In this document: piece after piece, positions 8,641 through 11,062 of the stretch
Position numbering within the stretch: position 1 is the stretch's first letter
How the letters are laid out: each line of letters opens with the position of its first letter
Origin: Acidobacteriota bacterium
GTDB taxonomy: Bacteria > Acidobacteriota > Vicinamibacteria > Vicinamibacterales > JAFNAJ01
DNA: 64,000 nt
Assembly (NCBI GenBank): GCA_023384575.1
Contig: JAHDVP010000012.1
Coordinates: forward strand, 1 to 64,000
Reading direction: 5' to 3'
Notes under the pieces: generated by a model
The model's input: only the letters and a program-made list of their open reading frames with translations
Database searches by the model: none
What the model was told of the DNA's origin: nothing
Made by a program: the position numbers and the translations under genes

Positions 8641-8775
8641 ACGAGCCTCAAGACGCCGACCGTCGTCGCTGACTTCCCCGCGCAGGTCCAGGTGAGGGCA
8701 GGCGCCGACTTTGCCCTCGCCGTCACGGCGGATGGGGTGGTGTGGCTGTGGGGCGGCAACGCGAGCGGCCAGCTT
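8641..8775 (+). pseudogene. RCC1-repeat remnant
   Basis: About 45 codons read VQVRAGADFALAVTADGVVW followed by LWGGNASGQL, a single good RCC1 (regulator of chromosome condensation) blade. A GATAAT box (8562-8567 region) and an SD-preceded ATG at 8607 lie upstream but in another frame, and the reading frame dissolves right before the hip operators. It looks like the 5' stump of a longer RCC1-repeat gene truncated where the hipBA module begins. Confidence 0.55.
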
Positions 8776-8806
8776 CTAGCGAGCCGAGCGCAGCGGATGT
8801 GCCGGA

Positions 8807-8820
8807 TTCCCGGTCGGGAA
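8807..8820. promoter_or_regulatory. HipB-type operator O1
   Basis: TTCCCGGTCGGGAA, a near-perfect palindrome with one change from the other two sites. Its centre lies exactly 50 bp from that of the next site. Confidence 0.65.
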
Positions 8821-8856
8821 TGTGGTGCCCGATTGAGCGAACAAGTTGGTCAATAT

Positions 8857-8870
8857 TTCCCGATCGGGAA
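8857..8870. promoter_or_regulatory. HipB-type operator O2
   Basis: TTCCCGATCGGGAA, a perfect 14-bp palindrome, 50 bp centre-to-centre from both neighbours, lying in the presumed hipBA promoter. Confidence 0.7.
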
Positions 8871-8906
8871 ATGCACTGGACATCAGCTCGTCAAGCGGTC
8901 ATGATA

Positions 8907-8920
8907 TTCCCGATCGGGAA
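8907..8920. promoter_or_regulatory. HipB-type operator O3
   Basis: A third copy of TTCCCGATCGGGAA ends 6 nt before the hipB GTG start codon. A GATATT sequence (8903-8908) overlaps its left edge and could be a -10 box, which would make this the direct repression site. Confidence 0.7.
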
Positions 8921-8926
8921 CCCCGC

Positions 8927-9151
8927 GTGACCATCGATGAGATCGGCACTGTCGTGCGGCAAGCCCGCCTCGCGCAGGGCCTGCGCCAGGATCAGTTGGC
9001 CGCGGCCGCTGGTGTCGGTCTGCGCTTCCTGGTCGAACTGGAGCGCGGGAAGCCCACCGTACGCCTCGACAAGGTGCTCGCCGTCCTGAGTGCCCTTGGC
9101 TGCCGTCTGGACGTCACGCCGCCGCCGGTACCGGCAGGAAGTGACGCCTGA
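8927..9151 (+). CDS. hipB: HipB-like antitoxin, XRE-family repressor
   Basis: 74-residue protein with a helix-turn-helix domain: IGTVVRQARLAQGLRQDQLA, then AAAGVGLRFLVELERGKPTV. Such HTH proteins are the antitoxin and operator-binding partner of HipA. GTG 8927 is chosen because the domain starts there; an in-frame ATG at 8846 would put operators O2 and O3 inside the coding region. The stop shares one base with the hipA start (TGATG). Autoregulation through the three upstream palindromes is inferred from position. Confidence 0.82.
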   Translation: MTIDEIGTVVRQARLAQGLRQDQLAAAAGVGLRFLVELERGKPTVRLDKVLAVLSALGCRLDVTPPPVPAGSDA

Positions 9152-10407
9152 TGCGGACGCTCTCGGTCTGGTGGGACCGCGTGGTCGTCGGCACGTTGCA
9201 GGTGAATCAACACGGTCAGATGCGGTTCACCTACGCCGCCGACTGGCTGGCTGACACGTCGCGGCCTGCGATCTCGTTCTCGCTGCCCAAGCAGGAGCAG
9301 CCGTTCACGCAGCGCCAATGCCGTCCGTTCTTCGCGGGCCTTCTGCCCGAGGAGGCGCAGCGCGGCGTGATCGCCGGAGCCCTCGGCATCTCCAAGGGCA
9401 ACGACTTCGCGCTCCTCGAAGCGCTCGGTGGCGATGTTGCGGGTGCCCTCTCTCTCTGGCCGGAAGGCGAGGTGCCACCGACGCCGGAACCGACGGGCAC
9501 GCCGCGCGCACTCAGCGACGACGAACTGGTCGAAGTACTGGATACGCTCCCGAAGCGCCCGCTGCTCGCCGGCCGCGAGGGGATGCGGCTCTCCCTCGCC
9601 GGTGCGCAGTCCAAGCTGCCCGTCGTGCTGGTCGGCGACCGCGTGGCCCTACCGGCCCCAGGACAGCCGACGACACACATTCTGAAGCCGGCCATCGAGC
9701 GCTTCCAGCAGACCACCGAGAACGAGGCGTTGGTGATGACGCTGGCCGCAGCGGTTGGACTGTCGGTCGCGCCGGCGACTGTCCGTAGCGTGAAGGGCCG
9801 GCCGTACCTGCTCGTCACCCGCTACGACAGGCGCTTCGATGCGAATGGGCAGGCGCACCGGCTGCACCAGGAAGACTTCTGTCAGGCGCTCGGCATTGTA
9901 CCCGAGCGGAAATACGCGGCGGAAGGCGGCCCGACCTTCAAGACTGGCTTCGACTTGCTTCGTCGCGCGACGACGGTTCCGGCCGTTGCCGTGCTGGCTT
10001 TTCTCGACGCTGCGATCTTCAACCTGATCGTTGGCAACGCCGACGGCCACGGGAAGAACTTCAGCCTGCTCTACCAAACCTCCGGCGTGAGCCTTGCCCC
10101 GTTCTACGACCTCCTCTCGACGGTCGCCTACCCGGATCTGTCGCCGAACCTGGCCATGAAGACCGCCAAGCGGGCGACGCTCGAGGAGATTGGGCCTACC
10201 ACGTGGACGGCGTTCGCGGACGACATCGGCCTGGCGGCCTCGTTCATTCGGCGGCGTGTGCGGGAGCTCTCTGAAAGCGTGAGCGGCCATGTGCGGACGC
10301 TTCCGGCCAGCGCAGCACTTGCCGAGCTCGACGCTTCCGCGCTGAAGGAGTACGCCGTGCTCATCTCGTCTCGCTCGGAACGGCTGGCCAGGACGATCAC
10401 GACGTAG
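9151..10407 (+). CDS. hipA: HipA-like Ser/Thr kinase toxin
   Basis: 418 residues. An N-terminal Couple_hipA domain (about 1-105) is followed by the HipA kinase domain. Motifs seen: SLAGAQSK (148-155, the Gly-rich loop, where Ser148 corresponds to the autophosphorylated Ser150 of E. coli HipA), HILKP with Lys179, the catalytic loop NADGHGKN (296-303) and YDLLST with metal-binding Asp320. HipA phosphorylates glutamyl-tRNA synthetase in E. coli and causes growth arrest; the substrate here is unknown. All key residues are present, so the toxin looks active. It is co-transcribed with hipB. Confidence 0.88.
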   Translation: MRTLSVWWDRVVVGTLQVNQHGQMRFTYAADWLADTSRPAISFSLPKQEQPFTQRQCRPFFAGLLPEEAQRGVIAGALGISKGNDFALLEALGGDVAGALSLWPEGEVPPTPEPTGTPRALSDDELVEVLDTLPKRPLLAGREGMRLSLAGAQSKLPVVLVGDRVALPAPGQPTTHILKPAIERFQQTTENEALVMTLAAAVGLSVAPATVRSVKGRPYLLVTRYDRRFDANGQAHRLHQEDFCQALGIVPERKYAAEGGPTFKTGFDLLRRATTVPAVAVLAFLDAAIFNLIVGNADGHGKNFSLLYQTSGVSLAPFYDLLSTVAYPDLSPNLAMKTAKRATLEEIGPTTWTAFADDIGLAASFIRRRVRELSESVSGHVRTLPASAALAELDASALKEYAVLISSRSERLARTITT

Positions 10408-10798: not shown

Positions 10799-11062
10799 TC
10801 AAAGCCTTCTGAGCAGTGCGAGATCCCCGGCGATGAGCGCTTCCTTTTTCGCGCGCGTCCACTTCTTCAACTGTCGCTCGCGCCTCAGCGCGGCGGCGCG
10901 GGTTTCTTGCAGCTCGGAGTAGACCAGCGCAACCGGCCGTCGCCGCGCGGTGAACACGCAGGCGCTCCCGTCGCGATGCTTCACGAGCCGGCCCTCGAGA
11001 TCGGCCGTCTCGCCGATGTAGAGAGCGTTGTCGGCGCAGCGGAGGATGTACACGAGGTGCAC
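10799..11062 (-). CDS. GIY-YIG nuclease superfamily protein (YhbQ-like)
   Basis: 87-residue single-domain protein with the GIY-YIG core: VYILRCADNALYIGETADLE, then GRLVKHRDG and a C-terminal basic helix (RRERQLKKWTRAKKEALI). This is the size and layout of small stand-alone GIY-YIG proteins (YhbQ/COG2827 type), several of which have DNA nuclease activity. It is convergent with the integrase scar and may belong to the same island. Confidence 0.8.
   Translation of the reverse strand: MHLVYILRCADNALYIGETADLEGRLVKHRDGSACVFTARRRPVALVYSELQETRAAALRRERQLKKWTRAKKEALIAGDLALLRRL

Follow-up and report, generated by a model that had tools for sequence, protein, structure and literature searches.

Upstream of the single-copy hipB and hipA genes of an Acidobacteriota bacterium, three near-identical palindromes (consensus TTCCCG(G/A)TCGGGAA) are centred at 8813.5, 8863.5 and 8913.5, i.e., at a pitch of 50 and 50 bp, and nearly the same pitch is maintained at related loci of about eight phyla. 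The array probably represents the autoregulatory operators of a Y4mF-type hipBA operon, with a pitch that would set the contacts between neighbouring HipB2A2 complexes and a promoter that would be clamped between two of the sites.

The hipBA locus and its palindromes

In the window, which is the whole stretch of 64,000 nucleotides that was analysed, the stop codon of hipB overlaps the start of hipA at 9151, and the HTH antitoxin gene directly precedes hipA in one operon (Table 1). The start of hipB was taken as the GTG at 8927; an in-frame TTG is also present at 8846. Profile searches of the genome returned hipB as the sole match to TIGR03070 above the cut-off. The full-length HipA matches the profiles PF07804 (1.5e-51) and PF13657 (1.4e-25) as well as the E. 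coli HipA structures (1e-36/1e-37), and the catalytic columns D298, K179 and D320 are conserved. Judged by the HipA domains and the upstream HTH antitoxin gene, the locus is a hipBA type II toxin-antitoxin module with putative toxicity and neutralisation. Downstream of hipA and convergent with it, the window contains a small GIY-YIG nuclease-like gene of 87 aa (10799-11062, minus strand).

Table 1. Predicted features of the hipBA locus; coordinates refer to the window
Feature	Position	Strand	Remarks
O1, candidate HipB-type operator	8807..8820	.	TTCCCGGTCGGGAA; one dyad mismatch; third site found in 80/97 homologous loci
O2, candidate operator	8857..8870	.	TTCCCGATCGGGAA; perfect palindrome; ends 6 bp ahead of the -35 hexamer
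Predicted sigma70-type promoter	8877..8905	+	TGGACA-N17-CATGAT; between O2 and O3
O3, candidate operator	8907..8920	.	TTCCCGATCGGGAA; perfect palindrome; would overlap the predicted transcription start
hipB	8927..9151	+	74 aa; Y4mF-type antitoxin, Xre/Cro HTH; TIGR03070 couple_hipB 79.7 bits (over cut-off), HTH_3
hipA	9151..10407	+	418 aa; HipA-family Ser/Thr kinase toxin; HipA_C and Couple_hipA

The palindromes and their twofold 50-bp spacing had been recognised in the original prediction, and the coordinates were confirmed; the last site, which was said to touch the hipB start, actually ends 6 bp short of the GTG. The right half of O3 (GGGAA, 8916-8920), which immediately precedes this 6-bp gap, could double as a ribosome-binding site. 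In the whole 5.9-Mb genome, TTCCCGNNCGGGAA has five matches including O1-O3, compared to three for a reversed control pattern, and a second TTCCCGNNCGGGAA pair 34-64 bp apart was found nowhere else. A chance origin of the array is excluded, as three of the only five TTCCCGNNCGGGAA sites of the genome are located here. The predicted dissimilarity to the E. coli operator also holds: TATCC-N8-GGATA has no match in the window even when up to two mismatches are allowed, and neither these half-sites nor the E. coli arrangement of four sites at 28/39/28 bp is present at the locus.

Spacing, half-sites and recognition helices of related loci

Relatives of hipBA were gathered from Acidobacteriota genomes, viral contigs and bacterial genomes. 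A motif-free repeat search of their upstream regions gave a best lag of 49/50 bp, or the double, in nearly all cases. In a site-matrix scan of 97 related loci, which are linked by descent and transfer and hence do not provide independent observations, 175 of 183 adjacent spacings measure 48-51 bp, the commonest pitches being 49 bp (n=83) and 50 bp (n=83). Exactly three sites were detected in 80 of the 97 loci; wherever three sites are regularly spaced (80 loci), O1 and O3 are 97-100 bp apart. The inner spacers are identical between loci only to the level expected by chance (median 0.26 in O1-O2 spacers, 0.29 in O2-O3 spacers), whereas the identity of the sites is 0.81; the distance is therefore the conserved quantity. 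Loci on the minus strand (L007, L013, L014, L018) exhibit the same spacing, among them the closest relative, L007 (HipA identity 89%). The 50-bp period and the palindromes are kept upstream of hipBA homologues, a check that the original prediction had itself suggested, and by position and conservation the palindromes are hipBA operators to which HipB presumably binds.

The class as defined here comprises TTCCCGNNCGGGAA-like dyads, three sites, a pitch of 48-51 bp and a sigma70 promoter between O2 and O3, and the present locus displays all of these features. It extends over about eight phyla (Acidobacteriota, Pseudomonadota, Myxococcota, Gemmatimonadota, Verrucomicrobiota, Kiritimatiellota, Lentisphaerota and others). 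The original proposal of a distinct operator class for this HipB lineage consequently stands insofar as the class is conserved and set apart from E. coli, but its restriction to Vicinamibacteria is rejected because hipBA relatives in many phyla carry the same array.

The recognition helix of HipB in the class (GxRF[IL]) retains its R in 97/97 and its F in 96/97 loci, and the sites retain a CCCG core. Other Hip clades possess different helices (KQATIS, RQATIS, VTQQTY and GKTxxF) together with different half-sites, and often the pitch differs too (27-28, about 41 or 70-76 bp). In the divergent loci L043 and L141, the half-sites are unrelated (TTTCAACG) while the pitch is still 50 bp; including L036-L038, L016 and L123, where the half-sites are likewise altered, all of these loci are spaced at 49-51 bp. 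Four hipBST loci share the half-site TATACCC and a GLRF/GIRF helix, with a pitch of about 41 bp in L214, L217 and L219 and of 73-75 bp in L149; a given half-site can go with more than one pitch. In the HipA tree, the 49-50 bp loci are separate from the 27-28 bp loci; pitch was labelled there for the class in its entirety, and a few entries rest on one measured spacing.

Multiple operators are already known from E. coli, Caulobacter (three sites) and Legionella. The hipBA operon of E. coli K-12 resembles the one described here in its HipB-family antitoxin, the several dyads upstream of hipB and the expected autoregulation. It differs in the number and spacing of sites (four at 28/39/28 bp centre to centre, as measured from a genome, versus three at 50/50) and in its half-site TATCC-N8-GGATA and recognition helix KQATIS, which is GLRFLV in the HipB of the window. 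E. coli HipB binds cooperatively to the four operators and introduces a 70-degree bend; HipA lies at its flanks and is kept inactive on the DNA (PMC3920265). The HipB of Acidovorax citrulli binds its own promoter in EMSA (PMC11990009). The hipBA1 and hipBA2 promoters of Caulobacter crescentus are reported to have three palindromic operator sites apiece (PMC8545095) and regularly spaced 'identical inverted repeats' (PMC7029023). The number of sites per promoter is the same as in the window, the Caulobacteraceae loci L051 and L079 belong to the 49-50 bp class, and the hipBA1 and hipBA2 operators very likely do so as well; the accessible main text on these promoters states no family-wide spacing rule. 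Legionella pneumophila hipBST has three evenly spaced operators, separated by 53-bp gaps, to which HipB binds in gel-shift assays (PMC10653801). The even spacing of three HipB operators resembles that in the window, but hipBST is a three-gene system with a different half-site and a pitch of about 71 bp centre to centre, in agreement with the hipBST loci at 70-76 bp. The y4mF-y4mE genes of Sinorhizobium fredii NGR234 (L173) encode a HipB of the same family (annotated Y4mF) and are preceded by TTCCCG sites 49 bp apart; unlike the window locus they are plasmid-borne, and no operator description for them was found in the searchable literature.

Even arrays of 26-28 bp, often with four sites (27/54/81), precede E. 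coli-like hipBA on plasmids, on viral contigs and in one Acidobacteriota genome (L176-L184, L192-L201, L021). On the Agrobacterium deltaense plasmid pEL101-131 (L186, 680-3624), two hipA-family genes lie in tandem and each follows a small gene, annotated as hypothetical in the first case and as HTH in the second. In the searchable literature, no prior description was found of the pitch conservation, of its independence of the half-site or of the promoter placement, and the array 14-mers had no occurrence in the literature searched.

Site pairs away from hipBA

When viral contigs were scanned for pairs of these sites 35-65 bp apart, irrespective of the encoded proteins, 61 contigs were recovered, 57 of them with a pair at 49-51 bp, and a looser scan revealed a family of 67 contigs retaining 49-50 bp. 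Only three of the viral loci from both pattern scans adjoin hipBA; the notion that the array always marks hipBA is rejected by these scans. Among the Acidobacteriota genomes with the array, it is located at hipBA in 7/9; the exceptions, G139 (L345) and G297 (L344), have an array-like 50-bp pair without hipBA; the pair in L344 immediately follows an integrase-like gene.

Orphan TTCCCGNNCGGGAA pairs at 49-50 bp are found on phage-like contigs without hipBA (L222-L341, L353-L367; e.g., L223:718-778, L222:5641-5704, L274:2538-2601 and L301:2892-2955). They are mostly the sole such sites in the stretch covered, and their surroundings vary, including neighbouring tRNA, ribonucleotide reductase, DNA polymerase and SSB genes. 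Three explanations for them were tried: (i) HipB-encoding elements are rejected, as none of 30 orphan records has a TIGR03070 match over the cut-off (the weak matches have E-values no better than 2e-7; the hipBA-bearing contig L315 gives 4e-19 in the same search, yet is itself below the cut-off); (ii) regulated promoters are rejected for lack of enrichment (promoter in 4/45 versus 4.9% of shuffles); (iii) coding repeats fit some 51-bp cases inside ORFs, but not most of the 49/50 cases. It is possible that a protein other than HipB reads the orphan viral pairs.

Probable assembly on the promoter and alternative explanations

The predicted promoter, whose -10 element abuts O3, is the only promoter-like match within 8760-8960 (0.0 expected). 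Among distinct loci, sigma70-like promoters (at least 9 of 12 matches) occur in 45/77 O2-O3 spacers versus 1/77 O1-O2 spacers and 3.4% of shuffles. Repression probably proceeds in the following manner: HipB dimers would bind the three near-identical dyads, O3 covering the -10 element and start point and O2 lying on the -35 side, and occupation of both would shut the promoter; O1 would lengthen the array. If two HipA monomers associate with each HipB dimer, as in E. coli, contacts between neighbouring HipB2-HipA2 complexes may confer cooperative repression and keep HipA inactive on the DNA, and selection for these contacts is the favoured reason for the fixed distance. By this analogy, cooperative contacts with HipA are plausible; the chances that a HipA-HipA contact causes the fixed pitch are about even. 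Promoter clamping alone is insufficient as an explanation since O1-O2 has the same pitch without a promoter, and the variation of the pitch among Hip clades (27-28, about 41, 70-76 bp) implies that there is no single contact geometry for the whole family.

RNA polymerase rather than HipA might fix the pitch, the 36 bp between O2 and O3 accommodating a -35/-10 promoter and the O1 spacing being copied by duplication. The promoter indeed fits O2-O3 exactly in the homologues, where the -35 element begins 6-8 bp after O2 and the -10 element ends 0-2 bp from O3. However, O1-O2 stays at 48-51 bp even though it contains no promoter and its spacer identity is at chance level, as a neutral duplicate would not, and the orphan viral pairs keep 49-50 bp without a promoter, which renders this explanation rather unlikely.

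Still less probable is the model of the original prediction, in which the proteins stack on one face of the DNA, nearly five turns apart, or loop it. The equal spacing in 80 three-site loci and the bending of DNA by E. coli HipB (PMC3920265) speak in its favour. At 10.5 bp per turn, however, 50 bp corresponds to 4.76 and 49 bp to 4.67 turns; these values are not integers, successive sites are rotated by about 240-274 degrees, and the sites therefore lie off one face of relaxed B-DNA. The five-turn spacing of 52-53 bp is avoided in the class, and 50-bp loops require sharp bends. A common helical phase in 11-bp steps (28, 39, 50, 72) was considered as well: the helical remainder of the E. coli spacings (28 and 39 bp) is similar to that of 49-50 bp, which is suggestive, but those of 27, 41 and 74 bp differ, and the rule is broken by the 27-bp arrays and by the hipBST arrays at about 41 bp and at 73-76 bp.

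A different widespread DNA-binding protein as the reader of the sites would account for the same-pitch pairs in dozens of viral contigs that have no hipB beside them; it is very unlikely for the class given that the array is present at nearly every Y4mF-type hipB examined, that a different HipB recognition helix is accompanied by a different half-site from one Hip clade to another and that Acidovorax HipB binds its own promoter (PMC11990009). A functionless recent tandem duplication, or chance, can be dismissed despite the near-identity of the three sites: it is refuted by the 175/183 spacings at 48-51 bp and the chance-level identity of the 36-bp spacers between loci, the pitch is kept across phyla, and the genome contains just five sites.

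Beyond autoregulation by HipB, the pitch, and not the site sequence, might be what the Hip family conserves as its code, with HipB2A2 complexes forming an ordered filament on DNA and the viral pairs acting as HipB-HipA decoys; taken together, this is an improbable proposition. Its decoy part, according to which viral site pairs would trap the host's HipB-HipA on DNA in its inactive state as a DNA-sponge counter-defence, is speculation.

The assembly of HipB and HipA on multiple operators has been detailed mainly in E. coli, with its irregular 28/39/28 spacing. A fixed pitch of 49-50 bp over about eight phyla, with the spacer sequence lost, provides a clean natural test of toxin-antitoxin operator geometry. 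For this class, repression is expected to depend measurably on spacing, and the HipB recognition helix may serve to predict operators and to classify hipBA operons.
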